This document shows positions 4,346 through 24,285 of a stretch of 24,285 bases of DNA, one piece after another. The position numbers and the translations under genes are program-made. The stretch is from a virus. The notes below the pieces were generated by a model. That model was not told where the DNA came from. It searched no databases and saw only the letters and a program-made list of their open reading frames with translations. The stretch covers positions 1 to 24,285 of IMG/VR virus record IMGVR_UViG_3300014914_000039. One strand, written 5' to 3'. The first letter of the stretch is position 1, and each line of letters begins with the position of its first letter.

Positions 4346-6049
4346 TTAAATTAGTTGTTGAATGTCGGATCGCCCTGCCAGTTCTGCAGCTGTCAGAGAA
4401 TTTTGCATAGACGCAAGGGTTTGTTGAGACGCAAGGCCTTGTTGAGACGCAAGGCCTTGCGTCTCTACATTGTTGTAACCATTTAATAGCATTGCTTGAA
4501 ATTCCTGAATTGAATCGGCTTTGTTTGCCATTTCTTTTATTGAATCAATTAATTCATCCTGAGTGATTTCGTTTTCTGCCATTTCCACTATGGTGTTTAT
4601 GGTGTCGGCAGGTGTTGATTTAATGTTTTTGGATTGCCGTAGAGACGCAAAATTTTGCGTCTGTACGTTTTGCAATGATTGTAGAGACGCAAGATTTTGC
4701 GTCTGTACGTTTTGCGATGGTTGTAGAGACGCAAGATTTTGCGTCTGTACGTTTTGCGATGATTGTTGAGACGCAAGATTTTGCGTCTGTACGTTTTGCA
4801 ATGGTTGTAGAGACGCAAGATTTTGCGTCTGTACGTTTTGCGATGGTTGTAGAGACGCAAGATTTTGCGTCTCTACGTCGAATTCGTCTTCGGCCAGGCC
4901 GTGGTTTCTTTGAAAATATGTTTTATTAAATCTAACCCCTGTTTTTGTGAGGGTTTCGTCTCTGTCAGCAAGATTTTGGTTGATCTCAGAAGGATCATAA
5001 AAAAGGATCTCAGGGATTCCATCATTGCTCTTGTGGTGAGGGTTTAGGTCTATAATCCATTTAATGAGTGTGTTCATTGTTTCTGTTATCGCTTGTATAT
5101 CAGTGTCAATTAAATCAGCTCTCACATCCATTGCAGCGGTGTCGTTGCCTAGTTTGCCAGCAGTTGAGTTTAATGCGCCTTCATGGCCAAGTACATTTAT
5201 TGAGATTTCCTTGTTGTGGTAGCTTGCAAATCTATCATAAGCATCGGTTGAGCCACCTTTGTCTTTTTGTTCCAGAAGCATAATAGAACCGTCATCAGGA
5301 ATGACAGAACAACCATCTTGAATCATAAGAATTAATTGTTGCAAAAGGTCGCTTCTGTCTTTTTCCGGTGCTCCCCTTGGCAACTTTCCAACTGCGTGAG
5401 GCATCCCATACTTTTCAATGAACTTTGCCCAATAGCTTACACCGCCTCGTTTGAAAGTTACAGGCCAAAAACAATCTGAATAAATTGCAATTCCATAAGG
5501 ATTCTCGTAATCAGCTTCGTGAGTTGTCAACAAAAATTTATATGGTTTTACTGGCTCTGGCTCTCCTGTTTGAGGTTTAAAGACAAGGTAATTCTCGTCA
5601 TTAAAGGCAAACCATTTTTGAGGCTTTCCTTTTACCTGTTCGGGGTAGAGGTCTTTGCCGTCCTTTTTCCAAATGACTTCAGAAACTTGAAAGCCATAGC
5701 CAAAATAATCAAGTATTTCAGTGAAAATTTGCCTTGTAGAGAGGTTTTTAAAAATTTCAGAAATAAATTGAAACGTATTATCACTGGAGTTATTGGCAAC
5801 AATCTTCCATTTCATTTTAAAAAAGCCAGATTTTCTCGACCTTGTTGCAGAGGAGACTTTTGAATCTCTTCTTATAAGTCTTAGGGAATCAATATAAATT
5901 CCAGCTTTTTTAAGAATAGGATCTGGATTTGGAAGGACATTATAAATTGCATTCCAATCTGCAATGTCTCTTGTTGCTTTCTCTGAAGTTAATTCAGGAA
6001 TTTTCATTTTTTCATTAGGGCTCACGTATATTTCAGGCATTTTAAACAA
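4346..6049 (-). CDS. Portal protein (Mu gp29-like, DUF935 family) with repeat-derived C-terminal tail
   Basis: 567 residues (Mu gp29 is about 512). Residues 1-385 follow the DUF935 portal family: PEIYVSPNEK, the long helix with RLIRRDSKVSSATRSRKSG, KYGMPHAVGKLPRGA, ISINVLGHEGALNSTAGK and the LNPHHKSNDGIPEILFYDP segment followed by LADRDETLTKTGVRF. The dodecameric portal sits at the capsid vertex and is the DNA channel. Residues about 391-471 are a repeat of 14 residues (core QTQNLASLQ) encoded by the palindromic array at 4639-4876, and residues about 527-548 a second repeat cluster (GLASQQ). These lie in the C-terminal part, outside the conserved core, and probably extend the clip/crown-distal tail. 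ATG preceded by AAAAAGGA. Confidence 0.92.
   Translation of the reverse strand: MFKMPEIYVSPNEKMKIPELTSEKATRDIADWNAIYNVLPNPDPILKKAGIYIDSLRLIRRDSKVSSATRSRKSGFFKMKWKIVANNSSDNTFQFISEIFKNLSTRQIFTEILDYFGYGFQVSEVIWKKDGKDLYPEQVKGKPQKWFAFNDENYLVFKPQTGEPEPVKPYKFLLTTHEADYENPYGIAIYSDCFWPVTFKRGGVSYWAKFIEKYGMPHAVGKLPRGAPEKDRSDLLQQLILMIQDGCSVIPDDGSIMLLEQKDKGGSTDAYDRFASYHNKEISINVLGHEGALNSTAGKLGNDTAAMDVRADLIDTDIQAITETMNTLIKWIIDLNPHHKSNDGIPEILFYDPSEINQNLADRDETLTKTGVRFNKTYFQRNHGLAEDEFDVETQNLASLQPSQNVQTQNLASLQPLQNVQTQNLASQQSSQNVQTQNLASLQPSQNVQTQNLASLQSLQNVQTQNFASLRQSKNIKSTPADTINTIVEMAENEITQDELIDSIKEMANKADSIQEFQAMLLNGYNNVETQGLASQQGLASQQTLASMQNSLTAAELAGRSDIQQLI
4406..4468. repeat. Degenerate GTAGAGACG-type palindrome cluster (18-bp period) inside portal gene
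   Basis: A complete 28-nt palindrome variant with symmetric centre CAAGGCCTTG occupies 4441-4468; its left 18 bases are repeated immediately upstream (4423-4440, and in decayed form at about 4405-4422). On the coding (-) strand it gives NVETQGLASQQGLASQQ in the same frame as other copies. Confidence 0.85.
4639..4876. repeat. 42-bp tandem array of six 28-nt palindromes with 14-nt linkers, coding within portal
   Basis: Palindromes begin at 4639, 4681, 4723, 4765, 4807 and 4849, an exact 42-base period. Each has a left arm GTAGAGACGCAA (one GTTGAGACGCAA) and a right arm TTGCGTCTGTAC or TTGCGTCTCTAC. The 14-nt linkers (GTTTTGCGATGGTT with one- or two-base variants) are near identical. On the - strand each unit encodes 14 residues (QTQNLASLQPSQNV type). 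Because linkers are short and alike, this is a protein-coding repeat expansion, not CRISPR. Confidence 0.95.
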
Positions 6050-6063
6050 TCCTTTTTAAAAAT

Positions 6064-6088
6064 GGTAAACCACAAAGGTTAACCCTAC
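6064..6088. repeat. Copy of GGTTGACC-type palindrome (second repeat family)
   Basis: GGTAAACC, a short loop and GGTTAACC, followed by CTAC, lie in the 45-base gap between the large terminase and portal genes. The layout and the CTAC end match the copy at 8218-8243. Confidence 0.6.
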
Positions 6089-6094
6089 ATTTCA

Positions 6095-7513
6095 TTATTT
6101 GTTAAATTTTCCATAAGAATTCAACAATTCCTGTTGAATGTCTTCACTTCTTTTTTTATACCAAGGGCTTTGAGATGTTGCCCATGTTTTACAGGCAGCC
6201 ACAGAATTCGCTGCATGGTAAGCCAAAGCCAAAGCCCAAAAGTGATCGGCATGGCCTGTGCTGTCTGTTCGGTCGGCATCGTACCGTATATTACCAGCAG
6301 CGGTGACTATTTTTTGAATACTATGACAAGAATCTCTTAACACAACATATTCAGGGATTATAATAGAAACATCCTCAAATGCTCCTTTGAGCGTTGAGGC
6401 CATAACTTCTTTTGATTGATTTGTAAAGGTAACACCTTCAACTCGAACTTCACCATATAATTCTTGCATATCCTCAGTGATAGGGATTCCCATTCCTGTT
6501 TGGTCAGTACACATACGGCGAATGTTATGGATTTTAAGGAACTCTCCAACGGTTCTTTTTTGCACTGGTGTTTTAACTTTTTCCATTTCATGAATGTGGC
6601 GAACAATGTATTGAAGTCCAATTTTTTCCAAAACGATAACAACAGAAAAATCTCGTTTTCTAGCGATATCCCAGCCAGCAAACAAAGCACCATCATAGTT
6701 TTTGAGCTGTTCAAGTGACAAAAGAAGATCTTGTTTTTCACATTGCATTATAACTTCATAAGTAAGGTATGCGGTTGTGGCATCGCGAGGATTACAGCAG
6801 TAGTCTTCTTGCCAGATGTCTTCGTCACGGCAGTCACGGCGTTCTTTTTCAAGCCATTCCTGTCGTTCTTTTTCAGTTGTTGTGTGGCCAAAAATTTTAT
6901 CAACAAGGCCATCAGCAACGGCTCTATGAATATCTATTGTGTGAATTGACCAACCTGTTTTACCGTCTTTTGTATCTTGAACAAATTGATAAAATAGAGT
7001 TTTTAAACCTTTGTGTGTTGATAGCATTCTGATAGGATAACCCCACATGGCTGCTGGTTTTGCACCTGACCACATTTGTTTTTGGCTATTATGAAGCGCC
7101 ATTTCATCCCAAACTATTTTACCACCTTTTGAGTTGAATGCTGTCGGTGCACTTGTCAAAGCATGTATTTTTCCGCCATTATCATATTCTATAACGCGGG
7201 CTTTAATCCCCTTGTCTTCGTCAACAACTTGTGTGCCCAAGTCATGTGCAGCGACATTATGGATTTTTGACCATTTACCACAATAGTCGATATATTCCTT
7301 ACCAGCAAGTTCATCTTTAGAAGAGAAATAAACATCTTTTACAGGCCTTCCATGAGTATATTGTTTTTCCTTAATGATATCGTCAACATCCTCAAAAGAT
7401 TGCATATAAGTTCCACCTATACGTCGAGACTTTTCAGCAATTTTTATAAGACTGTCATCTTCTATGTATTCCTTTTGATAATTTAAAAAGTAAGAGTTTA
7501 AGATATCTAACAT
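6095..7513 (-). CDS. Terminase large subunit (Mu gp28-like)
   Basis: 472 residues, ATPase plus nuclease that packages DNA by the headful mechanism and, in Mu, cuts flanking host DNA. Visible: a Walker A variant EKSRRIGGTY (27-36), Walker B GGKIVWDEMALH (130-141; D136, E137), a coupling motif STHKG (165-169), then the RNase H-like nuclease with acidic residues D282 in AGWDIARKRDFS, D337 in CTDQTGMGIP and D423 in HADHFWALALAYHA. All catalytic positions appear intact. The start has only a weak ribosome binding site and lies 6 bases after the stop of the small subunit gene, suggesting coupled translation. Confidence 0.95.
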   Translation of the reverse strand: MLDILNSYFLNYQKEYIEDDSLIKIAEKSRRIGGTYMQSFEDVDDIIKEKQYTHGRPVKDVYFSSKDELAGKEYIDYCGKWSKIHNVAAHDLGTQVVDEDKGIKARVIEYDNGGKIHALTSAPTAFNSKGGKIVWDEMALHNSQKQMWSGAKPAAMWGYPIRMLSTHKGLKTLFYQFVQDTKDGKTGWSIHTIDIHRAVADGLVDKIFGHTTTEKERQEWLEKERRDCRDEDIWQEDYCCNPRDATTAYLTYEVIMQCEKQDLLLSLEQLKNYDGALFAGWDIARKRDFSVVIVLEKIGLQYIVRHIHEMEKVKTPVQKRTVGEFLKIHNIRRMCTDQTGMGIPITEDMQELYGEVRVEGVTFTNQSKEVMASTLKGAFEDVSIIIPEYVVLRDSCHSIQKIVTAAGNIRYDADRTDSTGHADHFWALALAYHAANSVAACKTWATSQSPWYKKRSEDIQQELLNSYGKFNK

Positions 7514-7519
7514 AATTTT

Positions 7520-7951
7520 TTAGCTGTTTAAAATTTCATGGACACGATTTGAAATTTCATCACCTGAAACTTTGACAGTCCCCAGTTTTTCCTCTTTGAT
7601 TTTTGATTCATAGTCTTTTGTTTTAGGAAGCTGTCCAAGTAAGCGAGTCATTGAATTGATACGAGATTCAATTCTTTTATCCTGTTCTTCGTCGCCATAG
7701 CCTCCGTCAATGAGCCTATCCATTTCAAGACTTATTAATTTCATTAATTTACGCGCGAAATTATAGAGATCTTCGTGAAACTCAGTTTTTGTTTTAAGAT
7801 AGGCCGTTCGCTTTTGCTCCCAATTACCATCTGCTTTCCAAAGACGAACGGTCTTTTCGGCAATACTCAATTCACTGGCAATGGAGTCAATTGTGTATTG
7901 CTGAACAATGTAGAGCTTTTCAGCAATTGGTGCAAGGAAAGTTTTTTTCAT
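7520..7951 (-). CDS. Terminase small subunit-like DNA-binding protein (Mu gp27 position, DUF1804-like)
   Basis: 143 residues. Residues about 18-48 form a helix-turn-helix (TIDSIASELSIAEKTVRLWK followed by ADGNW), the pattern of phage small terminases that recognise the packaging site. The remainder is helical and charged, with residues 75-110 likely an oligomerisation region. Its ATG overlaps the stop of the upstream coiled-coil gene by four bases (ATGA) and it directly precedes the large terminase gene, as in Mu-like phages. Confidence 0.85.
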   Translation of the reverse strand: MKKTFLAPIAEKLYIVQQYTIDSIASELSIAEKTVRLWKADGNWEQKRTAYLKTKTEFHEDLYNFARKLMKLISLEMDRLIDGGYGDEEQDKRIESRINSMTRLLGQLPKTKDYESKIKEEKLGTVKVSGDEISNRVHEILNS

Positions 7952-8193
7952 GAAAGATCCTCTTGAATTTCTTTGATTTTATTTTTGAGTTTTCTAAGTT
8001 CCAGCACATCATTTTTCATAGAATTCATTTCAGCAGAGGCTTGTTTTACTTTGATTTTTTCGAGATTATCTTCATAGGGATCAAGGAGATTTCTCACTGA
8101 TGCGATGTTTGCAGAAATCATTACTTCGAGTTCAGCAGCTTTATGTTCATATTGAGCCAATTTTCCTCTGTATTTGAGCATTTCATCATTCAT
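7948..8193 (-). CDS. Small coiled-coil protein of the packaging operon, unknown function
   Basis: 81 residues from the ATG at 8193, chosen because AAGGGGA lies 7 bases upstream and the ATG overlaps the previous stop as ATGA; the longer frame up to 8229 runs through a repeat. The protein is almost entirely charged helix (KYRGKLAQYEHKAAELEVMI, NDVLELRKLKNKIKEIQE). It occupies the place of Mu gp26, whose role is unclear. No catalytic motif is visible. Confidence 0.7.
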   Translation of the reverse strand: MNDEMLKYRGKLAQYEHKAAELEVMISANIASVRNLLDPYEDNLEKIKVKQASAEMNSMKNDVLELRKLKNKIKEIQEDLS

Positions 8194-8603
8194 TTGGTTT
8201 TCCCCTTGTTTAAAGAAGGTTGACCACATAGGGTCAACCCTACAATTTGATTTATGTTGTTTAATTTTTCATTCATTTTTGCCATGTTTGCGGTTTGCAT
8301 TTCTAATGCTGCTGTGGTTCTTTCCTGGAGTTTAAAAACTCTTTCCAGTGCTTTTTCGTGTGATTCAATAAGCTTTGTGTTTTGTTCTCTGAAAATTTTA
8401 AGAGCATTGTCTTGTATAGTTTTATTAGTATCGATCATACTATTCCATTTTTTGAGATGCTCAGCTCTATCTTCATCATTCTTTGATTTTAAATCTGCCA
8501 TTGCTTTTTTAGCAATGAAATAAATAAGAATAAATAAGGATGGAATACCAATCACAGGGTATAAACTTGTAAAGCTTGCAATTTCAGACAAAAAAACCTC
8601 CAT
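8190..8603 (-). CDS. Membrane-anchored coiled-coil protein (DUF2730/Mu gp25-like position)
   Basis: 137 residues: an N-terminal hydrophobic segment (residues about 14-31, PVIGIPSLFILIYFIAKK) followed by a long charged coiled coil (33-120). In Mu-like phages a TM-plus-coiled-coil protein (gp25/DUF2730) stands just before the terminase genes; a spanin- or holin-like lysis role is an alternative. The C-terminal residues IVGLTLCGQPSLNKG are encoded by the GGTTGACC-type palindrome at 8218-8243, so the last 15 residues or so appear to come from a repeat insertion. First gene of the leftward operon. Confidence 0.65.
   Translation of the reverse strand: MEVFLSEIASFTSLYPVIGIPSLFILIYFIAKKAMADLKSKNDEDRAEHLKKWNSMIDTNKTIQDNALKIFREQNTKLIESHEKALERVFKLQERTTAALEMQTANMAKMNEKLNNINQIVGLTLCGQPSLNKGKTK
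8218..8243. repeat. GGTTGACC-type palindrome inside coding sequence
   Basis: Perfect 8-bp arms GGTTGACC and GGTCAACC separated by 6 bases, with CTAC at one end. Read on the - strand it supplies the codons for about V-G-L-T-L-C-G-Q-P of the membrane/coiled-coil protein. It resembles the intergenic copy at 6064-6088. Confidence 0.7.
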
Positions 8604-8806
8604 TAAAAAGAATAATTGGCAACCACAAGGGAAGCCTTCACATTATCAAAGATACAACCAAAAACTATTCAAAAAATTTTATCATTTGATAAAAGTTTTT
8701 GAATAGTATTGTGGTTTATATTTGGTACAGATGTGAAATTTTTATGTTACAAAAAAATGAATTGGGAATTTGATTTAAAAATTTAATAAAAAACAAGGGT
8801 GACAAA
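8604..8806. promoter_or_regulatory. Divergent late promoter region with 44-bp palindrome at 8664-8707
   Basis: The only gap between the leftward head operon and the rightward capsid/tail operon, so both must be initiated here. Its centre is a near-perfect palindrome: arm ACTATTCAAAAA-x-TTTTATCA on each side of a 2-base TT centre, with 20 of 21 pairs complementary. No convincing -35 boxes are seen, as expected for activator-dependent late promoters. Whether the palindrome binds the Mor-type activator or another factor is unknown. Confidence 0.6.
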
Positions 8807-10024
8807 ATGAAAATTAAATGGTTTGACTTATTAAGAACAGGCAAATTTAAAACTCTAAAAGGTGAAGATGTTGAAATTACAGAACAAGACTTGTCTGATA
8901 TTGAAACAAATTACAACCCTGATGAGTTCAGCGCTCCTATGACTCTTGGTCATCCTAAAGACCAAAAAGAGCCTGCGTATGGGTGGATTGCAACTGTAAA
9001 AAAGTTTGGGAACAAACTTTGTTTTGCTCCCGGTCAGGTTGTAAAAGAGTTTGCTGAAGCTGTCAACAAAGGAATGTTCCCTAAAGTTTCAGCTGGTATT
9101 GAAAATGCTGATAATGGAACAAAAGCATTAAATCATGTAGCTTTTTTAGGTGCCTGGAAACCAGCAGTTTCCGGTCTGGCAAAAATTGAAGGGCTTGATT
9201 TTGCAAGTCAGAAAGATGCATTATGCATTGAGTTTGCTGACTGGAATAAAGAAAAACTTGAGTTTGCTATTGCTGATTATGATTTGAGTTACAAGTTTGA
9301 GACTATTGGCGAGCTGCTTAGTGGTATTCGCGATTTTATTATTGATAAATATGACACGCAAACAGCGGACACTGTTCTTGCATCCTGGCAGATTGACCAG
9401 GTGAAAAAGAAATTGATTGAAAATTCTTCAACTGATAATTTTGCAGAAAAACAAACAAGAGAGACGCAAAATCTTGCGTCTCTACAGGGCAATGGCAATG
9501 ATGATAATGTCGAAAAGTTGAAAAATGAAATCAAGGAATTTGCGTTAAAGACGCAAAATCTTGCGTCTCTACTTAAAACTGAAACAGAACTGAAAAACAA
9601 GGCTCTTTTTAAGGTTTCGGAGATGGAAAGTAAGGCAAAAGAAGCAATTACAGCAAGGGCTCGGTTTGAATTTTCATCATGGGCAAATTCCATGGTTGAA
9701 CAAAATAAACTTTATCCAAACAAAGTTGATGACACGGTTAACCGATTGATGTTTTTTGCTTCTAATAAAATCACAGAGTTTTCAACTGATTTCTCAACAG
9801 ATGAAATTGTTGAGTATAAATCAAAAATTGAAAACAATGAATCAACAGATTTGACTACAGAAGTTGCGAGAAAAGGCAAAGGAGAAAAAGGCGTGGCTAG
9901 TGCCATTGAGCTTGCTGCATATGCGAACAAACACATTACTGAAATGGCTACTCAAGGGACAACCGTTGGAGTTGCTCAGGCAGTTGAGTTTGTACAGAAT
10001 AATTTGGAAAAATTTCAAAAGTAG
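8807..10024 (+). CDS. Prohead protease/scaffold (Mu I-like) carrying two repeat-derived inserts
   Basis: 405 residues. The N-terminal 130 residues match the Mu I protease family: GHPKDQKEPAYGW (48-60, H49), FPKVSAGI (91-98, S95) and ALNHVAFLGAWKPAVSGL (107-124, H110), giving a Ser/His constellation. The C-terminal half is helical and charged and would be the scaffold (the Z product in Mu starts internally). Two 28-nt palindromes are read in frame at residues about 218-226 (ETQNLASL) and 246-255 (KTQNLASL), and the TAG stop lies inside a third palindrome (10021-10048). ATG preceded by AAGGGTG; first gene of the rightward operon. Confidence 0.9.
   Translation: MKIKWFDLLRTGKFKTLKGEDVEITEQDLSDIETNYNPDEFSAPMTLGHPKDQKEPAYGWIATVKKFGNKLCFAPGQVVKEFAEAVNKGMFPKVSAGIENADNGTKALNHVAFLGAWKPAVSGLAKIEGLDFASQKDALCIEFADWNKEKLEFAIADYDLSYKFETIGELLSGIRDFIIDKYDTQTADTVLASWQIDQVKKKLIENSSTDNFAEKQTRETQNLASLQGNGNDDNVEKLKNEIKEFALKTQNLASLLKTETELKNKALFKVSEMESKAKEAITARARFEFSSWANSMVEQNKLYPNKVDDTVNRLMFFASNKITEFSTDFSTDEIVEYKSKIENNESTDLTTEVARKGKGEKGVASAIELAAYANKHITEMATQGTTVGVAQAVEFVQNNLEKFQK
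9458..9485. repeat. GTAGAGACG palindrome, coding copy in protease gene
   Basis: Near-complete copy with centre CAAAATCTTG and right arm GCGTCTCTAC. Read as (R)ETQNLASL on the + strand. Confidence 0.9.
9545..9572. repeat. GTAGAGACG palindrome, second coding copy in protease gene
   Basis: The left arm is decayed at its outer end (TTAAAGACG), the right arm is intact. Read as LKTQNLASL in the same frame as the first copy. Confidence 0.9.
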
Positions 10025-10048
10025 AGACGCAAAACTTTGCGTCTCTAC
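10021..10048. repeat. GTAGAGACG palindrome overlapping the protease stop codon
   Basis: A full 28-nt copy (centre CAAAACTTTG). Bases 10022-10024 (TAG) are the stop codon of the protease/scaffold gene, so the insertion may have set the present C-terminus. Confidence 0.92.
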
Positions 10049-10128
10049 TGTTGAACCGCTATAAATTGCATTAAGCGGGTCTTTTGATAAATAGAAAATA
10101 GTTGTAAATGACAAGTAAAAGGGGTGAA

Positions 10129-10242
10129 ATGAGAGTTTTTTTGATTTTTAAAAACAGTCTGAGTTCCATAGGGGCTGTTTTAAGGTACTTTTTCAAGTTC
10201 AGCCATTCAATCTACCTCTCAAACCCATTTAAAAAGATTTAA
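10129..10242 (+). CDS. Possible 37-residue peptide gene
   Basis: A short frame in the 295-base gap after the protease gene, with AAAAGGGG four bases before ATG. The product, starting MRVFLIFKNSLSS, is hydrophobic and basic. No homolog is recognised and base composition does not distinguish it from non-coding DNA. The rest of this gap holds the palindrome at 10021-10048 and no other recognised element. Confidence 0.2.
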   Translation: MRVFLIFKNSLSSIGAVLRYFFKFSHSIYLSNPFKKI

Positions 10243-10319
10243 AAGGTCTTTTAATGCCTTTTGAAAAAGATTATAAGTTTGTTTCAAATAGAATTTTAAT
10301 AAAACAAGGAGAAATTTAA

Positions 10320-11030
10320 ATGAATCCTCTATTAAACAAAAATTATACTGCTGATGGTGCTGTGGCAAAACACAAAATTGTTAAGTATGGCACTGCTGAC
10401 GGTACGGGTTCGGTGTCATCTTCGTCAACAGATAAGTTTTTTGGTGTGAGTTATGAAATTGATACAGCTGACGGTGATAGACTTGATGTCGTTGAAAATG
10501 GTATTGCGGATGTCCTTTACGGCGGTGTTGTTACAAAGGGCGACTTTCTCACATCAAATGCAAATGGTAACGCTGTAAAAGCAGGCTCTGGAGATCGGGT
10601 TGTTGGTGAGGCAAAAGTTTCTGGTGTCTCTGGCGATATTGGAAAAATCAAGGTCATGCTTTCAAATAAAGACGCAAATGTGCTTAATACTTATGAAGCT
10701 GATGGCGCAGTTGCTGGAAACAGAATTGTAAAACCAAGCACAGCAGCTGGAACAATTGCTCAGGCAAGCGCGGCAACTGACTTGTTAACTGGTGTTAGTG
10801 ATGCGGATGGTGCTGCTGATGAAGCTGATTGTGTTGTTGTTGAAACTGGTATAGCTCCAGTCGAATACGGCGGGACTGTTACAAAAGGAAACTTTCTAAC
10901 AGCAGACGCAAACGGAAAAGCCATCACGGCATCAACTGCGGAAAGAGTAATTGGCACAGCAATGGTTTCCGGTGTTGATGGTGATGTTGGCAGTGTGAAA
11001 ATTAATCCGTTCTTTCTTACAATTGCTTAA
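10320..11030 (+). CDS. Head decoration-like protein with duplicated domain (DUF2190-like)
   Basis: 236 residues with AAGGAG before ATG. It consists of two tandem copies of a roughly 115-residue beta-rich domain: YTADGAVAKHKIVKYG (9-24) aligns with YEADGAVAGNRIVKPS; YGGVVTKGDFLTSNANG with YGGTVTKGNFLTADANG; and VVGEAKVSGVSGDIGKIKV with VIGTAMVSGVDGDVGSVKI. The sequence style fits the DUF2190 family, small capsid-associated proteins encoded beside the major capsid gene. The duplication may let one chain fill two capsid sites (inference). The position between protease and capsid genes supports a structural role. Confidence 0.75.
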   Translation: MNPLLNKNYTADGAVAKHKIVKYGTADGTGSVSSSSTDKFFGVSYEIDTADGDRLDVVENGIADVLYGGVVTKGDFLTSNANGNAVKAGSGDRVVGEAKVSGVSGDIGKIKVMLSNKDANVLNTYEADGAVAGNRIVKPSTAAGTIAQASAATDLLTGVSDADGAADEADCVVVETGIAPVEYGGTVTKGNFLTADANGKAITASTAERVIGTAMVSGVDGDVGSVKINPFFLTIA

Positions 11031-11093
11031 TTAATTTATTGGAAAAGCTAAGATCATGTTAAGTGTGTTGCCATAATTGTTGAAATATTGACC

Positions 11094-11121
11094 GTAGAGA
11101 CGCAAGATTTTGCGTCTCTAC
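11094..11121. repeat. GTAGAGACG palindrome, intergenic copy before capsid gene
   Basis: An intact 28-nt copy (centre CAAGATTTTG) in the 143-base gap between decoration and capsid genes. Confidence 0.95.
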
Positions 11122-11173
11122 ATAAAATTTACAGAAAATAAAAAATATTAATTTTAAATACGGAGAATAAAAT

Positions 11174-12100
11174 ATGAAAGCTCCTTTCCCAATTGACCCT
11201 GTTCTTGTTGCGATAATGGTTGCATACAAGAACACAAAGTTAATTGCTGACGATGTTCTTTTTAGAGTACCAGTTGGCAAGCAAGAATTCAAATACTGGA
11301 ATATCCCAAAAGGGCAAAATTTTACTATTCCAGACACTAAGGTAGGGCGTGCAAGTAAGCCTAATCAAGTAACATTCAATGCGACAGAAGAGACAGACTC
11401 AACTGTTGACTATGCTCTTGATGATCCAATTCCAAACGCGGACATTGAAAACGCACCGTCAAACTTCAATCCTGTTAATATGGCTGTTCAGGGGATTGCG
11501 AACCTAATTGCATTAGATAGAGAAGTTAGAACGGCGAACCTTGTTTTTAATGCTGCCAATTATGCTACAGCAAATAAAATTCAGTTGAGTGGTAATGCTC
11601 AATTTAGTGATTTTACAAACTCCGATCCTATTGGTGTTATTATGGCAGGGCTTGATGCTTGTGTTATGAGACCAAATGAAATGACGATCGGTCGTTTAGT
11701 TTTTTCAAAATTAAGTCAACACCCGGATATTAACAAGGCCACAAAAGGCAATAGTGGAGACACAGGAATCGCACGGAGACAGCAAATTGCTGAGCTTTTT
11801 GAACTTGACGCTGTTCATGTCGGTGAAGCTTTTGTTAATACGGCAAAACCAGGTCAGACCGTTTCATTGAATCGAGCATGGGGAAAACATATTTCATTAC
11901 AATATGTTGATCGTACTGCGAATACTCGTGGAGGTACCACTTTTGGTTATACTGCACAGTTTGGAGATCCAATTGCTGGAAAATGGGAAAACAAAAACAT
12001 TGGTATGCGTGGTGGTCAAATGACTCGCGCGGGTGAAAGTGTCAAAGAATTAATCGTTGCAAATGACCTTGGTTATTTCATCGAAGACGCTATTGCTTAG
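11174..12100 (+). CDS. Major capsid protein (Mu T position)
   Basis: 308 residues, close to the length of Mu T (about 305). GGAGA lies about 7 bases before the ATG. Segments typical of this phage capsid group are VPVGKQEFKYWNIPKGQNFT, IPDTKVGRASKPNQV, FNATEETDSTVDYALDDPIP, and the C-terminal RGGTTFGYTAQFGDPIAGK. It follows the protease/scaffold and decoration genes as in Mu-like modules. It would form the icosahedral shell with the HK97-type fold (inferred from family). No N-terminal extension is seen, consistent with a separate scaffold. Sequence similarity seems closer to non-Mu members of the transposable-phage capsid group than to Mu T itself. Confidence 0.85.
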   Translation: MKAPFPIDPVLVAIMVAYKNTKLIADDVLFRVPVGKQEFKYWNIPKGQNFTIPDTKVGRASKPNQVTFNATEETDSTVDYALDDPIPNADIENAPSNFNPVNMAVQGIANLIALDREVRTANLVFNAANYATANKIQLSGNAQFSDFTNSDPIGVIMAGLDACVMRPNEMTIGRLVFSKLSQHPDINKATKGNSGDTGIARRQQIAELFELDAVHVGEAFVNTAKPGQTVSLNRAWGKHISLQYVDRTANTRGGTTFGYTAQFGDPIAGKWENKNIGMRGGQMTRAGESVKELIVANDLGYFIEDAIA

Positions 12101-12232
12101 TAATTAGTTTCTGTTCAGAATACAAAAAAAATTATCTCAAACCGATCATTGAGCTTGCCGAAATGGCGTTTTTAGGTCGAATCCGTGGCACTTCGACAAG
12201 CTCAGTGACCGATTCTGAACAGAAACTAATTA
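12101..12232. repeat. 132-bp MITE-like inverted-repeat element
   Basis: Perfect 21-bp terminal inverted repeats (12101-12121, beginning TAATTAGTTTCTG, and 12212-12232) enclose a second imperfect stem: TGAGCTTGCCGAAATG on the left pairs with CACTTCGACAAGCTCA on the right. The whole segment can fold into one long hairpin. It begins at the base after the capsid stop codon and has no coding frame. The GACAAGCTCAGTGACCG motif is a widespread bacterial intergenic repeat. A non-autonomous transposable element or a processed hairpin are both possible. Confidence 0.75.
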
Positions 12233-12286
12233 GAAAAATCGTTAATTGACATAAAACGATGTCCTTTTTGAGTTAAGATTGATTAA

Positions 12287-12316
12287 CCTGGTCAATTACC
12301 ATTGTGATTGACCAGG
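12287..12316. repeat. 10-bp perfect inverted repeat, possible terminator or operator
   Basis: CCTGGTCAAT and ATTGACCAGG flank a 10-base loop. No T-run follows, so termination is not strongly supported. It lies in the 254-base gap between capsid and completion genes that also contains the MITE-like element. Confidence 0.5.
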
Positions 12317-12354
12317 CAATTAAACAAAAAAAACTAACAGAAAGTTAAAAAAAA

Positions 12355-12672
12355 ATGGCAAAGAAAAAAACGGCTGCTGAAATTGCAGCTGAAAAAAAAG
12401 CTGCTGAAATTGCAGCTGAAAAAAAAGCTGCTGAAATTGCAGCTGAAAAAAAAGCTGCTCAAGAAAAGAAAAACAAAGAGTTCAAAGATTCACTGAAAAA
12501 AAACAATGAAGGAATCTACAAAGGTTTAACGTCAAACGAAGTAAAAGTAAAGTTTCATAAAAATGTTCTTCACAATGAAACTTTGTATGAAGCTGGCAAA
12601 GAGTATTCTTTTGAAGCTGCCGAGCTTGCTCTTATCAAAAATAACAAAACCTTTAAACCTGTTGAAGAATAA
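12355..12672 (+). CDS. Mu gp35-like small head protein with repeated N-terminal helix
   Basis: 105 residues. The N-terminus is a Lys/Ala-rich helix made of three exact 9-residue repeats AAEIAAEKK (12373-12453, 27-bp units), followed by another charged stretch. The C-terminal 45 residues (VKVKFHKNVLHNETLYEAGK, then ELALIKNNKTFKP) have the pattern of the short C-terminal domain of Mu gp35-like proteins encoded between capsid and gp36. The role in Mu is not established. The start is ATG in an A-run with no clear ribosome binding site; AAAGTTAAA precedes it. Confidence 0.6.
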   Translation: MAKKKTAAEIAAEKKAAEIAAEKKAAEIAAEKKAAQEKKNKEFKDSLKKNNEGIYKGLTSNEVKVKFHKNVLHNETLYEAGKEYSFEAAELALIKNNKTFKPVEE

Positions 12673-12696
12673 AAGCCGCGAAAGGCGTATTAATAG

Positions 12697-13134
12697 ATGT
12701 ATAGTGCATTAGACGATTTAATCTCCTTAATTCCTGAAGAACGACTTCTTCAGTTAACCGATGATGAGCAGGAAGGTGAGTTTATTATTTCACCACCTAA
12801 TGCACCATACTCAAAGATTGTTGCTGCGATTGAGGATGCTGACACAATAATTGATAGTTTTCTCGTTGAAAATTACGAAGTTCCTTTTACCACAATCATC
12901 CCGAAATTAGTAACACAAATCAGTACTAATTTAGCAATTTACACATTATATACCCGTTCTCATGATCTGGATGCTCCAAAAGGTATTGTCATGAGGTATG
13001 AAAATTATATGAAGATTTTAGAGAAAATACAAAGCAAAGAAATTAAATTTCCCGAACTTGTAATAAATGATAATTTTTTCAAATCAAGTAAAACAGCAAA
13101 TGATGTCAATTTTGGAAATTTGGAATCATATTAA
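12697..13134 (+). CDS. Head-tail connector protein (Mu gp36-like, DUF1320)
   Basis: 145 residues. MYSALDDLISLIPEERLLQL at the start and KIVAAIEDADTIIDSFLVENYEVPF (in two halves) followed by PKLVTQISTNLAIYTLYTR match the DUF1320/gp6-like connector family, all-helical proteins that join the portal and tail completion proteins. It is followed by the gp37-type gene with a one-base overlap (TAATG), as in Mu order. No anomalies. Confidence 0.9.
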   Translation: MYSALDDLISLIPEERLLQLTDDEQEGEFIISPPNAPYSKIVAAIEDADTIIDSFLVENYEVPFTTIIPKLVTQISTNLAIYTLYTRSHDLDAPKGIVMRYENYMKILEKIQSKEIKFPELVINDNFFKSSKTANDVNFGNLESY

Positions 13135-13712
13135 TGAGTAATTTTAATATAATAAACGATTTTGAAAATGCAATTCTTGCTTTTATTTCAAGCATGAAAC
13201 AGCCAGGCAATGAAAGCAGTCCGCTTTTTAACATTGTGGAATTCAGTGTTGACATTTCAAAGATTAGGCCAAAAAGATGGCCTTCAATAATGATTGCCAC
13301 AGACCCTGTTGAATTTGAAAAGGGGAATATATTAAGTGGAAACTTAAGAAGCCTTAGTTTTAAACCAACAACTCATATGATTGTTTTGTATAGGAATGAA
13401 TCTGCTGTAAGAAAAGAAAAATTCAGAAGGCATAATACTTATCCAATAGTATTAGCACTGGTAAAACATATTGACGGTAATAAATTCGGTTTAGATATTG
13501 ACTCTGTAAAAGTGATTTCAGTAAAAGAAATCATAACGGAAGAAACAACAGAGCGAGATATAATCGCTTTTGACATTGCTTTTACATGGAAAACTGAAAT
13601 TGAAGGCAATGAAGACGAATACGAAGATTTACTCGTCATAGCAAATAAATACTTTGTTGTTGACGGTGAAGAGAGTACAGAAATAGTTGAAGACATTGTT
13701 GACGTCTCTTAA
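13134..13712 (+). CDS. Tail terminator/completion protein (Mu gp37-like, DUF1834)
   Basis: 192 residues. INDFENAILAFISS at the N-terminus, the central MIVLYRNESAVRKEKFRRHN segment and the VLALVKHIDGNKFGLDIDSV region match the gp37/DUF1834 family, thought to cap the tail tube before joining the head. Start chosen because ATG overlaps the previous TAA by one base. The C-terminal 25 residues are strongly acidic. Confidence 0.85.
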   Translation: MSNFNIINDFENAILAFISSMKQPGNESSPLFNIVEFSVDISKIRPKRWPSIMIATDPVEFEKGNILSGNLRSLSFKPTTHMIVLYRNESAVRKEKFRRHNTYPIVLALVKHIDGNKFGLDIDSVKVISVKEIITEETTERDIIAFDIAFTWKTEIEGNEDEYEDLLVIANKYFVVDGEESTEIVEDIVDVS

Positions 13713-13759
13713 TAATAGAAAATTAACAAAATTCCATTTTTTGATGGGAGTATAAATAT

Positions 13760-13984
13760 ATGAATACAAAAACTGTTTTAGTTTATACTGATACGCCTTT
13801 TAGAAGCTATTGGGAAACATCCAAAATTATAGGTCAAACACCTGTAAGGATTCCTCACGATGCTTTGTGCAAAAAGATGTTGTCAGATGGTAGTTTAAAG
13901 ATGGTTGGCGTAGAGCCGTTGCATGCAACGTCTCTACATGCAAAGGATGAAAAATCTACACAAAAGAAAAAGGCAGGTAAATAA
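13760..13984 (+). CDS. Small protein in Mu gp38 position (DUF2635-like) with repeat-derived segment
   Basis: 74 residues. TPVRIPHDALCKKMLSDGSL recalls the 'P-x-x-x-x-W-x-R-R-L-x-D-G-D' core of DUF2635 (Mu gp38), encoded just before the sheath gene. Residues about 51-60 (VEPLHATSLH) are encoded by a 28-nt palindrome at 13910-13937, so the lysine-rich C-terminal tail follows an inserted repeat. The last base of the stop overlaps the sheath ATG (TAATG). Role in tail assembly is unknown. Confidence 0.6.
   Translation: MNTKTVLVYTDTPFRSYWETSKIIGQTPVRIPHDALCKKMLSDGSLKMVGVEPLHATSLHAKDEKSTQKKKAGK
13910..13937. repeat. GTAGAGACG palindrome, type B (GCATGC centre), coding copy
   Basis: The left arm GTAGAGCCGTTGC has one change from the consensus; the right arm is GCAACGTCTCTAC. 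Read as VEPLHATSL in the gp38-like gene, the same phase as the type A copies. Confidence 0.92.
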
Positions 13985-15414
13985 TGACAATACCTTCTTC
14001 TTATAAGGTTCCAGGAAAATACACAGAATTTGATTTGGTATCAGGAGCAAAAGGGTTTGCCCCATTAAATGAACAAATTGTAATTATTGCCCAAATGGAC
14101 TCAGTTGTCGGAAGTGCTGAATTGTTGAAACCGATTCAAGTATTTCAAGCATCAAAAGCAAAAGAGTTGTTTGGACCCTATTCAATCGCTTATTTAATGT
14201 GCGAAGCCATTTTTGAGGCAAACATAAACGCACCTGTTTCTGTTTGTCCGATTGCTGATGACGCTGCTGGTGTTGCTGCTGTAAAAACAATCAGTGTTTC
14301 GTTTGAGGAGGTCGGAGATCTTGCAGGTCCCGCATCGCTTTGGATTGGTAACAGAGAAATTAAAATTGTTGTTGCTGCTGATGATGCTCAAGCAGATGTC
14401 GCGGCTGCCCTTGCCACTGCAATTAACGCAGAGCAAAGACAACCTTATACAGCTTCTGCAACTGATAGTGTTGTTACAATAACAGCAAAAAACAAAGGGA
14501 CTCTAGGAAGTGAAGTTAAACTTCAAATCGGAGACAAGCCCTCAATGGTAACTCTTGTAATTGCAGAAACCACTCCAGGTTCTGGCGATCCTGACATCTC
14601 TGCAACTGATGGTGCTCTTGACAAGTGTTTTCCAGGTAATTACACAATGTACTGTGTTCCTTATGATGACAGCACAAATCTTGCAGCATTAAGGGACCAC
14701 ATTGATCTCGTTTCCGATGGGATGGAGCAAAGAGGAACGCTTGGTGTTTTCGGTTATACTTCAGAAAACGGAAACCTCGCTGCTGTTCAGTCTTTGTGTG
14801 GAACAACTCTCAACTCCTGGAGAATGTGTTGTGGTTATTATCCGGAAACAAAAAGTATTTGTTATGAGATTGCTGCTGGTTTTGCTGGCGTTATTGCAAC
14901 ACAACCAAGGCCAGGAGATCCGATTGATGACTATGTTATTAAAGGGCTTGAGGTACCGGATGTTGATCTCAGAATGCTTGAAGCCGTGAAGCAATCATTA
15001 TTAATCAACGGGGTTTCTCCAATCCATGTTGTTTCCGAGCGTTCAGCAATTTGCATGGTGAGAACAACCTATACTTCAAATGTTGTTGGTGGCGGTTATA
15101 TTGATAAATTAATAGATTTCATAACTCCTCGTAGTTTGGATTATATCAGGCTTCAAGTGAATAATATGGAAAAGAATAAATATCATAACAAGAAAAACAA
15201 CGAGCCCACAAGGGACAATCTTGAAAAAGATATTTATTGGGTTTTAAAAGAGCTTGAAAAACCTGATTTTGAAATCACTCAAAATGTTGACGAGAACAAA
15301 GATGGAATTATTGCAACTGAAGATTCTGTAAATGTCAGTCGTGCGAATGTTGATGTTCCTGCTGATGTTGTTCCAGGACTTCACCAAATAGTTAATACAG
15401 TACGTTTATTATAA
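13984..15414 (+). CDS. Contractile tail sheath protein (Mu L-like)
   Basis: 476 residues, near the 495 of Mu L. Diagnostic segments: IPSSYKVPGKYTEFDLVSGA at the start, the central LRDHIDLVSDGMEQRGTLGV, SWRMCCGYYPETKS, IATQPRPGDPIDDY, and RSAICMVRTTYTSN near the C-terminal domain, ending VVPGLHQIVNTVRLL. Sheath subunits polymerise round the tube and contract to drive it through the envelope. Residues about 95-200 form the exposed insertion domain typical of Mu-like sheaths. Start set by TAATG overlap. A small duplication in the C-terminal part (DENKDGIIATEDSV) gives a Ca-binding-like DxNxDG motif. Confidence 0.93.
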   Translation: MTIPSSYKVPGKYTEFDLVSGAKGFAPLNEQIVIIAQMDSVVGSAELLKPIQVFQASKAKELFGPYSIAYLMCEAIFEANINAPVSVCPIADDAAGVAAVKTISVSFEEVGDLAGPASLWIGNREIKIVVAADDAQADVAAALATAINAEQRQPYTASATDSVVTITAKNKGTLGSEVKLQIGDKPSMVTLVIAETTPGSGDPDISATDGALDKCFPGNYTMYCVPYDDSTNLAALRDHIDLVSDGMEQRGTLGVFGYTSENGNLAAVQSLCGTTLNSWRMCCGYYPETKSICYEIAAGFAGVIATQPRPGDPIDDYVIKGLEVPDVDLRMLEAVKQSLLINGVSPIHVVSERSAICMVRTTYTSNVVGGGYIDKLIDFITPRSLDYIRLQVNNMEKNKYHNKKNNEPTRDNLEKDIYWVLKELEKPDFEITQNVDENKDGIIATEDSVNVSRANVDVPADVVPGLHQIVNTVRLL

Positions 15415-15417
15415 ATC

Positions 15418-15472
15418 GTAGAGACGTTGCGGTTGTTATAAATTGTAGAGACGTTGCATGCAACGTCTCTAC
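15418..15472. repeat. GTAGAGACG palindrome, type B: half copy plus full copy
   Basis: A half element (GTAGAGACGTTGC, 15418-15430) is followed by a complete 28-nt palindrome with GCATGC centre at 15445-15472, in the gap between sheath and tube genes. Confidence 0.93.
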
Positions 15473-15523
15473 GTAATACGAAAATAATTTGATTAATAAT
15501 ATTTAAAAAAAAGGAATATAAAA

Positions 15524-15886
15524 ATGGCCAGAGTATCAAGGTGTAAAATTTTTATAAATGGCGCACAAAATACAGATCTTAAAAGCTTCAAATCAAATTC
15601 TCGTGTTGTTGCTAAAACTGTAATGTTAATGCACAAAACAGACTATTTTAATGTAACGCCTGAAAATGTGTTTACAATTGATTATGCTGTCCCATCTGGC
15701 AAAACAGAATTTGATTTTGATAGCGTACTTGATGGAACTGCAACAATTAATGTTGCAAAAGATGGCGGTGGCAGTTACCTCTTTTCTAATTGTAGATGTT
15801 TGGAAATTGGTGAAGAGACTATGGATAATGAAAACGAACTTGTGAAAACAATCACAATTTTTGCTGAAGACAGAGTTGATGAATAG
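15524..15886 (+). CDS. Tail tube protein (Mu M-like)
   Basis: 120 residues, the length of Mu M (about 118). The beta-rich pattern CKIFINGAQNTDLKSFKSNS, FNVTPENVFTIDYAVPSGKT, GTATINVAKDGGGSYLFSNC and the acidic end match the tail tube family; immediate location after the sheath gene supports this. AAAGGAATATAAAA precedes ATG. Forms the inner tube by stacking of hexameric rings. Confidence 0.88.
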   Translation: MARVSRCKIFINGAQNTDLKSFKSNSRVVAKTVMLMHKTDYFNVTPENVFTIDYAVPSGKTEFDFDSVLDGTATINVAKDGGGSYLFSNCRCLEIGEETMDNENELVKTITIFAEDRVDE

Positions 15887-15892
15887 GAAGCT

Positions 15893-16012
15893 GTTAGTTA
15901 TTAGTTATTAGTTATTAGTTATTAGTTATTAGCTATTAGTTATTAGTTATTAGTTATTAATTATTAGTTATTAATTGTTAATTATTAATTGTTAATTGTT
16001 AATTGTTAGTTT
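15893..16012. repeat. Heptanucleotide tandem repeat (TTAGTTA)n, about 17 units
   Basis: The 7-base unit GTTATTA/GTTAGTTA repeats from just after the tube stop codon almost to the ribosome binding site of the next gene. The first ten or so units are nearly identical, the last ones drift to TTAATTG/TTAATTA. No coding frame. Tracts like this are known in repeat-rich bacterial genomes; here it lies inside a phage late operon. Confidence 0.9.
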
Positions 16013-16036
16013 GAGAAAAAAATAAAGGAGTGAAAA

Positions 16037-16528
16037 TTGGATATTAATAAATTGAAACTCGGTGCAAATAATCGAAAACCTGTCAAATGGCCAGGTACAA
16101 AAGAAACTGTTTATATCAAAGTGTTGTCTGATTTTGATTACAATACAGCAGTGAAAGAAACAGATCTTGAATACAAAGATAGAGGAATCAATCTCGCAAA
16201 TGTCACTGAAAGAAGTTGTTTCATAGAACAGTATTGCCTATTTCTTTCAATAGTTGACGAAAAAGGCAAAAGGCTTTTTGATGATTTCAAAACTTTTTCA
16301 GAATGCCTTACGCACGAATTAAGGCTTGAGTTTTGTGATATACAAATGGCCTGGCAAGAAGAGTGCTCTCCAAATATTGACTATATGCCTGATAAAGAGT
16401 TTAATGTTTTACTTAAAGAAGTAAAAAAAAATCCGGAAAAAGTAAAGAATATATCAAGTACCTCCTTGCTGAGAAGGCTTATTATTACTTTGGCTGTCCG
16501 GCCTGTGAAATTACAGACGGGCAATTAA
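16037..16528 (+). CDS. Tail assembly chaperone, 0-frame product (Mu gp41 position)
   Basis: 163 residues starting at TTG with AAAGGAG 6 bases upstream; the nearby GTG and ATG are out of frame. The protein is globular and charged, with the segment TERSCFIEQYCLFLSIVD central and no known catalytic motif. It lies between tube and tape-measure genes, where long-tailed phages encode a chaperone made in two forms by ribosomal frameshifting. The 0-frame C-terminus after residue 131 (NPEKVKNISSTSLLRRLI...) is probably the shorter form. Chaperones of this type bind the tape measure and recruit tube subunits. Confidence 0.75.
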   Translation: MDINKLKLGANNRKPVKWPGTKETVYIKVLSDFDYNTAVKETDLEYKDRGINLANVTERSCFIEQYCLFLSIVDEKGKRLFDDFKTFSECLTHELRLEFCDIQMAWQEECSPNIDYMPDKEFNVLLKEVKKNPEKVKNISSTSLLRRLIITLAVRPVKLQTGN

Positions 16529-16614
16529 TACTTCTTTATGCAATGTTTGAATATGATCCTGAAGATGCATTGAACAAAAATGACAAAGTGGAAATCTATT
16601 ATATAGATAAATAA
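16037..16614 (+). CDS. Tail assembly chaperone, predicted -1 frameshift fusion (G-T type)
   Basis: Near residue 131, a -1 slip in the A-run 16423-16431 takes ribosomes into a frame that is open for 60 further codons to TAA at 16612. The extension reads KSGKSKEYIKYLLAEKAYYY, then FGCPACEITDGQLILLYAMF and EYDPEDALNK, a well-formed protein sequence ending just before the tape measure gene. The 0-frame reading over the same bases (RRLIITLAVRPVKLQTGN) looks less protein-like. This is the arrangement of lambda G/GT and of Mu-like chaperone pairs. The stretch contains a C-x-x-C (CPAC) not usual for such domains. Confidence 0.8.
16423..16429 (+). other. Slippery heptamer A-AAA-AAA for -1 frameshifting
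   Basis: In the 0 frame the codons are GTA AAA AAA AAT; nine consecutive A residues fit the X-XXY-YYZ rule. The A-run is followed by TCCGGAAAA but no obvious strong stem was found by eye, so a stimulatory structure is unproven. Confidence 0.75.
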
Positions 16615-16651
16615 TTTAATTGCAGACAATTAAAACACAATGTACTGTACT

Positions 16652-16681
16652 GTAGAGACGTTGTGCGTGCAACGTCTCTAT
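16652..16681. repeat. GTAGAGACG palindrome, type B variant (30 nt), intergenic
   Basis: Arms GTAGAGACGTTG and CAACGTCTCTAT around TGCGTG; two bases longer than the standard copies. It follows the chaperone frameshift product. Confidence 0.9.
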
Positions 16682-16704
16682 ATAAAAATGCAAAATAGGA
16701 AACC

Positions 16705-16732
16705 GTAGAGACGCAAGGCCTTGCGTCTCTAC
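16705..16732. repeat. GTAGAGACG palindrome, type A2 (GGCC centre), directly before tape measure RBS
   Basis: A perfect 28-nt palindrome with centre CAAGGCCTTG. Its right end abuts AAGGAAAT, the ribosome binding site of the tape measure gene, so a hairpin here could affect translation. Confidence 0.93.
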
Positions 16733-23505: not shown

Positions 23506-24285
23506 ATGGAAATAATTAGAGAACAAATGGCTCTAAATGATGATTATTTTATTTGCTTTCCTCTAATACAATCAGATGACAGACCGAATCGGCTGTCTGG
23601 TGTTGTTGCTGCTGATATAGACGAAATCAAGTTGTATGTTGTAGATATTAATGGTTCTGCAGCCTATACAATCGACCAGTCAACACAATTTCACTCCATA
23701 GGAAACGGGTGGTATTACCTTGTGATTCCTGGCGGTTCAATTAATAAAGTTGTTGGAACAAACCATATAATCACAATAAAACACGATGGTACTGAAAATT
23801 TTGACACGCAAACAGTTATTGTGCGGTTTGTTGAAAATTTCGGTGGTGTGGACTGTAATGTTGTTAGTGTTGATGGAAACGCTGTTACAAGCGTTGACGA
23901 TTTCAAAGCTAATGTTTCTGGATTATCAACATTTGACCATGAAAATGACACGGTGAAAAGTGACATTCAGTCGGTTAAGACTGTTTCTGTGACTTCTGTT
24001 GACGATTTCAAAGCTAATGTTTCTGGATTATCAACATTTGACCATGAAAATGACACGGTGAAAAGTGATATCCAGTCGGTTAAGACTGTTTCTGTGACTT
24101 CTGTTGATGATTTCAAGGCTGATGTTTCTGGATTATCAACGTTTGACCATGAAAATGACACGGTAAAAAGTGATATTCAGTCGGTTAAAGCCGTTTCAGT
24201 CACTTCAGTTGACGATTTCAAGGCTGATACTAACGGAATAAGTTGCAATAGTAATGTCATTAGTGTTGATGGAAATCCTGTTACA
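23506..24285 (+). CDS. Tail fibre/appendage-like protein with 35-residue repeats (3' partial)
   Basis: Open for all 260 codons from ATG 23506 (AAAGGA upstream) to the window end, so the gene continues past it. The N-terminal 115 residues are a beta-rich domain resembling phage upper baseplate or adaptor domains (EIKLYVVDINGSAAY, GNGWYYLVIPGGSI). Then come 35-residue repeats of the form DDFKANVSGLSTFDHENDTV plus KSDIQSVKTVSVTSV, three full copies and a fourth begun. Such repeats are typical of phage tail fibre and tail-spike shafts and may form a trimeric beta or coiled structure. Role as fibre is an inference from position and repeats. Confidence 0.7.
   Translation, partial: MEIIREQMALNDDYFICFPLIQSDDRPNRLSGVVAADIDEIKLYVVDINGSAAYTIDQSTQFHSIGNGWYYLVIPGGSINKVVGTNHIITIKHDGTENFDTQTVIVRFVENFGGVDCNVVSVDGNAVTSVDDFKANVSGLSTFDHENDTVKSDIQSVKTVSVTSVDDFKANVSGLSTFDHENDTVKSDIQSVKTVSVTSVDDFKADVSGLSTFDHENDTVKSDIQSVKAVSVTSVDDFKADTNGISCNSNVISVDGNPVT
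23896..24285 (+). repeat. 105-bp tandem repeat in fibre-like gene
   Basis: The unit begins at 23896, 24001, 24106 and 24211 (exact 105-base period); the first two units are almost identical and later ones differ by a few silent or conservative changes (GCTAATGTTTCT to GCTGATGTTTCT, A to D). Confidence 0.95.

Follow-up and report, generated by a model that had tools for sequence, protein, structure and literature searches.

A short dispersed palindrome, probably mobile and host-derived, in the late genes of a Mu-like phage

The subject of this report is a 28-nt palindrome that recurs within and between the late genes of IMG/VR record IMGVR_UViG_3300014914_000039, a linear 24,285-bp fragment of a Mu-like myovirus or prophage, which was analysed whole and is called the window below. 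It is best explained (with a probability put at about 0.7) as a mobile palindrome resembling repetitive extragenic palindromes (REPs), Rickettsia palindromic elements and small dispersed repeats (SDRs), acquired from the host and tolerated in linkers between protein domains. Copies are dispersed through many bacterial chromosomes, have no counterpart in orthologues of the phage genes that carry them, have been amplified in tandem, and prefer one reading frame outside the window as well as in it. An earlier note on this DNA had proposed an inserted, coding-tolerant palindrome spreading through a phage structural module. Insertion and coding tolerance are borne out by the orthologues, the chromosomal dispersal and the frame preference; as for the spread, inserted copies do occur in that module, but the element is one of bacteria at large and no phage speciality.

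The palindromes of the window

There are 15 full or near-full GTAGAGACG-N10-CGTCTCTAC palindromes, of which one has a 12-nt centre, and a further three half copies, spanning positions 4405-16732. At up to three mismatches 14 sites fit this pattern, compared with none in 100 dinucleotide shuffles, and 32 half sites at up to one mismatch were observed in the window where 1.2 were expected; a chance origin is ruled out by these two results. The window is also the densest viral contig found, with 14 copies at up to two mismatches versus a maximum of four in 177 other viral loci, themselves fetched for holding such palindromes or half-relaxed forms. The element is 28 nt long and fully symmetric, and every full intergenic copy begins with a GTAG that is base-paired to CTAC as part of a perfect 12-bp stem. 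The positions in the earlier note all hold, 16652-16681 proving to be a 30-nt copy with a 12-nt centre; its count of at least twelve full or near-full copies outside the portal array comes down to nine (4441, 9458, 9545, 10021, 11094, 13910, 15445, 16652 and 16705). The copies and the two larger genes holding them are as follows.

4346-6049, minus strand: Mu-type portal gene (phrog_113; PF06074 at residues 57-385), holding the array and a C-terminal copy
4405-4468, minus strand: palindrome at 4441-4468 (GTTGAGACGCAAGGCCTTGCGTCTCTAC) with two 18-bp partial tandem copies (4405-4422 and 4423-4440), in the portal C-terminus; encodes VETQGLASQQGLASQQTLAS; no counterpart in portal orthologues
4639-4876, minus strand: portal array, palindromes at 4639, 4681, 4723, 4765, 4807 and 4849; about 80 amino acids directly after the Portal_Mu domain; not in orthologues
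8807-10024, plus strand: head maturation protease/scaffold gene (phrog_976), with two linker copies and a TAG stop from the 10021 copy
9458-9485, plus strand: palindrome, AG end-variant, in the protease gene; reads RETQNLASL
9545-9572, plus strand: palindrome, TTAA end-variant, in the protease gene; reads LKTQNLASL
10021-10048, plus strand: perfect palindrome with CAAAACTTTG centre, overlapping the protease stop codon; its GTAG gives the TAG at 10022-10024
11094-11121, plus strand: perfect palindrome with CAAGATTTTG centre, intergenic, before the major head gene
13910-13937, plus strand: palindrome with TTGCATGCAA centre, within a small gp38-like open reading frame (ORF; 13760-13984); reads VEPLHATSL
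15409-15472, plus strand: perfect palindrome (15445-15472, TTGCATGCAA centre) together with a half copy (15418), both in a 27-bp tandem duplication that follows the tail sheath gene
16652-16681, plus strand: 30-nt variant palindrome with 12-nt centre, intergenic
16705-16732, plus strand: perfect palindrome with CAAGGCCTTG centre, 12 nt ahead of the start of the tape-measure gene

The six palindromes of the portal array follow one another at an exact 42-bp period (28-bp palindrome plus 14-nt spacer), with a near-identical spacer after five of them and a shared CTGTAC variant in five. This anatomy points to a single insertion followed by tandem amplification, and six independent insertions are rejected; the six copies reported earlier are present, but as one insertion amplified. 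Because 42 is divisible by three, amplification keeps the reading frame. The half copies at 4405, 4423 and 15418 likewise belong to tandem duplications, being two 18-bp partial units ahead of 4441 and one 27-bp partial unit, including eight flanking bases, ahead of 15445.

The intergenic copies all lie between co-directional late genes, and four of the five are perfect, with stems of about -18 kcal/mol, while most intragenic copies are eroded at their ends. They could therefore have a selected function, the hairpins being kept as RNA elements of the late operon (terminators, mRNA stabilisers or processing sites) and the intragenic copies being incidental. However, no U-run was seen after the copies, a scan of the window against Rfam gave no match, intragenic copies are equally numerous, and the contrast in perfection rests on about ten sites, too few to test. 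Such a function is considered unlikely, and the intergenic copies would instead be tolerated as transcribed hairpins.

Insertion sites and reading frame

The window genes were compared with relatives from Desulfobacterota genomes, Bacteroidota genomes and IMG/VR phages. The major head protein is 61% identical to that of a Desulfobacterota genome (G314) and 54% to that of a Bacteroidota genome (G378), neither of which contains a palindrome at up to two mismatches. The window portal exceeds its aligned relatives by about 80 residues at the array, to which nothing corresponds in L240, L046, G158, L242, G314, L241 and others; the C-terminal VETQGLASQQ segment of the portal and the VETQ-like segments of the protease are likewise absent from the aligned relatives. 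Since portal and protease orthologues lack them, these segments are, judging from the alignments, insertions in unconserved linkers. A structure prediction for the portal (mean predicted local distance difference test score, pLDDT, 49.8) agrees weakly with a linker at the array: residues 393-499, which include it, score below 50, and no helix is predicted up to residue 453.

Other phages have copies of their own. L072 (VETQDFASL), L082 (with two degenerate copies) and L117 (VETHGRTSL) have copies with other centres in the linkers of their portals, and in L118 the copy is at residue 404, directly past a Portal_Mu domain at 65-383. Elsewhere a copy is found at residue 178 of an L369 protein, directly past a CLP domain ending at 170; at residue 250 in L064, at a protease-capsid junction where one protease/capsid match starts; in the protease linker of L046; in another portal family in L120; and in the tape measure gene of L041. 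The earlier note had reasoned that the same segments at the same places in other phages would mark ancestral protein sequence. The copies of several phages differ in both centre and position and seven relatives have none, which argues for recurrent insertion. On the ancestral view, this portal/protease family would have had VETQNLASL-like repeats from early on, with the DNA palindrome arising secondarily from the peptide, and it is true that L072, L082, L117 and L118 share the peptide type in the same portal region. Identical palindromes, however, lie between genes at 10021, 11094, 15445 and 16705, where no peptide is made, and palindromes occur by the hundred in unrelated chromosomes. Together with the gaps in the orthologues, this largely refutes an ancestral protein sequence, which is held to be very improbable. 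Under recurrent insertion, intragenic copies would survive only where the gene stays open, in unconserved inter-domain linkers such as those after Portal_Mu and inside the protease.

With the array counted as one insertion, the window has five independent intragenic events, and all five are read in the same frame (p = 0.06 against 50:50). Outside the window, this frame (VETxxxxSL) was found 36 times and the other open one (RDxxxxVST) 12 times (p = 0.0007), counting copies with up to two mismatches in ORFs of at least 250 amino acids after clustering; the split in viral contigs is 17:2. Loose viral sites (three to four mismatches, most probably chance matches) fall into the three frames as 4:6:3 and do not show the bias. 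The preference is a real bias of roughly 3:1, resting chiefly on viral genes. The single frame claimed earlier thus describes the window events and a wider preference, but an absolute rule is rejected by the 12 uses of the RDxxxxVST frame. The associated peptide motif, first given as V/R-E-x-x-x-x-A/T-S-L, is in fact looser, with VETQNLASL, VQTQNLASL, VETQGLASQ, RETQNLASL, LKTQNLASL and VEPLHATSL all represented. The VETxxxxSL product is probably kept about three times as often because it makes the more harmless linker.

Portals or proteases account for 8 of the 16 viral target genes read in the VETxxxxSL frame, an enrichment with p between ~4e-6 and 1e-3 if their share is assumed to be 7-15% of coding DNA. 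Given that assumption, and the chance that the selection of viral contigs favours head genes, the enrichment is only suggestive.

The family in bacteria and its mobilisation

Among GTDB genomes, at least 118 stretches contain the pattern. All 24 of the genomes checked, which were picked because the scan had matched them, contain it, at 1-241 copies per genome and over at least nine phyla; a reversed-pattern control gave 0. Titles of the matched stretches name Bacteroidota, Cyanobacteria, Spirochaetota, Chloroflexota, Planctomycetota, Acidobacteriota, Desulfobacterota, Zixibacteria, Cloacimonadota, Patescibacteria and Pseudomonadota, and among Nostocales there are 241 copies in Dulcicalothrix and 186 in Calothrix. 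The centre forms a perfect palindrome in 100 of the 146 genome copies, where chance would give 0.1%, and differs by genome, with CAGCATGCTG in an acidobacterium, CGCCGCGGCG in a Bacteroidetes metagenome-assembled genome (MAG) and TAGCATGCTA in a Desulfuromonas MAG. The element would therefore seem to be a short, fully self-complementary, non-autonomous palindrome with fixed GTAGAGACG/CGTCTCTAC arms and a 10-nt centre that drifts yet stays palindromic. The arms in G002, a Desulfuromonas MAG, carry symmetric double changes (GTAGAGACACATTGCAATGTGTCTCTAC several times), that is, compensated mutations within the palindrome. The phage most likely gained its copies while resident in a host chromosome carrying the same family. 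The CAAGATTTTG centre of the window is shared by Desulfobacterota G243, G234, G157 and G094 and by Bacteroidales G022, and so does not fix the host.

At an orthologous site, one Planktothrix species has a CGCCATGGCA centre and a second species TTGCATGCAA, the arms, flanks and boundaries being unchanged (switched loci L266, L275, L268 and L270; relatives L286, L288, L289, L290, L292, L295 and L300). This in-place switching suggests conversion or replacement of the whole palindrome. Two Planktothrix species also differ by a 32-bp tandem duplication. Replication slippage provoked by the hairpins could underlie both the tandem duplications of the window (the 42-bp array and the 18-bp and 27-bp units) and the replacement or conversion of centres.

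Several results weigh against a host-derived mobile palindrome, at least in part. Relatives of the phage genes are at most 61% identical, too distant for insertion edges to be placed at the level of single bases, and neither Planktothrix nor the full set of fetched loci offered a clean empty site with a target duplication, the Planktothrix and viral comparisons giving only rearranged empty sites; the comparison of orthologues proposed in the earlier note brings out the insertions, but neither their exact edges nor a clean target duplication. Neither major head homology nor tetranucleotide correlation discriminates between Desulfobacterota and Bacteroidota as host. The frame bias reaches significance in viral contigs, though the genome set by itself does not show it significantly (19:10, p = 0.14), and its overall p shifts from ~0.001 to 0.15 with the ORF cut-off. 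Finally, the mobilising enzyme was not found by a search for Y1 transposases: of the 30 Y1 loci in 12 copy-rich genomes, partly draft, a copy lies within 1.5 kb of 5 and on both sides of none, and G020, with 14 copies, has no Y1 match.

The last of these results bears directly on a RAYT/REPIN system, in which a REP-associated tyrosine transposase (RAYT) would move the palindromes, as in Pseudomonas and Escherichia. Y1 transposases are present in 11 of the 12 copy-rich genomes, and a GTAG end, a palindromic shape, the supply of TAG stops and intragenic copies have all been described for GTAG REPs (PMC3733652). Here, however, GTAG is paired, leaving no unpaired tag, and strengthening a REP palindrome abolished RAYT cleavage, according to Di Nocera (PMC3733652). 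A RAYT had been suggested in the earlier note as something to look for; no association with one emerged, and a system of this kind is judged improbable. With a RAYT unsupported and no clean target duplication, the palindromes are held to be non-autonomous and moved by some other host function. A more far-reaching version is rather doubtful: one symmetric GTAGAGACG-arm family would have been carried across at least nine phyla by non-RAYT transposition, with phages as vehicles, and would have generated linkers by repeated in-frame entry at portal and protease domain boundaries.

Other features of the window and known systems

The label Mu-like, already used in the earlier note, follows from gene content: a Mor-type regulator, a Mu-type portal (PF06074), Mu-type virion morphogenesis and minor head proteins, a tail sheath and a GpP-like baseplate protein are all present, along with a head maturation protease, a major head protein and a tape measure. 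No transposase gene was identified among the genes of the 24,285-bp fragment. Between the minor head and portal genes is a Lipase_3-like ORF (PF01764; 3702-4334), unexpected for a Mu-like head module, and at 10320-11030 a decoration-like protein has an internal duplication, both halves matching the same stretch of its relatives. Other repeats include a 27-bp tandem repeat encoding KKAAEIAAE near a small-ORF start (12355-12460), a TTAGTTA / AATTGTT heptamer array between the tail tube gene and the one that follows it (15890-16012), and three 105-bp tandem units in the final, open-ended ORF, probably a tail fibre-like gene (23882-24228). An inverted sequence with CTTCGACAAGCTCAGTGACCG at 12130-12230 has exact matches in three other viral contigs and has the look of a further dispersed repeat. 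Two gene junctions (6063-6087 and 8215-8243) have eroded inverted repeats of the GTAGGGTTGACC type; no perfect form of this type was found in the viral contigs.

SDRs are reportedly very small mobile repeats of Nostocales cyanobacteria, the work being that of Elhai et al. in 2008. The GTAGAGACG palindrome, abundant in Nostocales, may be one of the named SDR families, which were compared by description only; SDR5 is described as inserted inside HIP1, unlike the window copies, around which no HIP1 context was seen. REPINs are also non-autonomous short palindromes with many copies per chromosome, but neither a paired-REP structure with spacer nor a transposase flanked by the copies was found here. 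Literature text matches to the arm sequences were, among the matches listed, unrelated and mostly primer sequences.

There is also a likeness to GTAG- and CGTC-tagged REPs, palindromes of 20-40 bp from several phyla, some of them in ORFs and with clusters encoding 43-82 amino acids; the GTAG end often supplies a TAG stop to the upstream gene (Di Nocera, De Gregorio and Rocco, 2013; PMC3733652), as the 10021 copy does for the protease. The tag of GTAG REPs is unpaired and the element asymmetric, whereas all 28 bp are symmetric here, and the flanking RAYT expected of them was not seen in the copy-rich genomes. The word phage and GTAGAGAC are both absent from the text of PMC3733652. Rickettsia palindromic elements, again compared by description, share in-frame insertion at tolerated places in protein genes, here the portal and protease, whose orthologues lack it; they come from Rickettsia and end in CGTC (PMC3733652), whereas the present element occurs across many phyla and also in head genes of phages. 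By analogy, the palindrome appears to work like both of these systems, minus the unpaired tag and flanking RAYT of GTAG REPs.

So far, palindromes that code for protein have been described chiefly in Rickettsia and a small number of REP-rich species. In the present case, unrelated phyla share a single arm sequence, which has entered phage capsid genes time and again, at what appear to be inter-domain linkers and with a measurable preference for one frame. Such recurrent entry would amount to a natural experiment repeated many times over, in which proteins gain peptide from small mobile DNA, and the in-place switching of centres between species gives a handle on how such repeats are copied.

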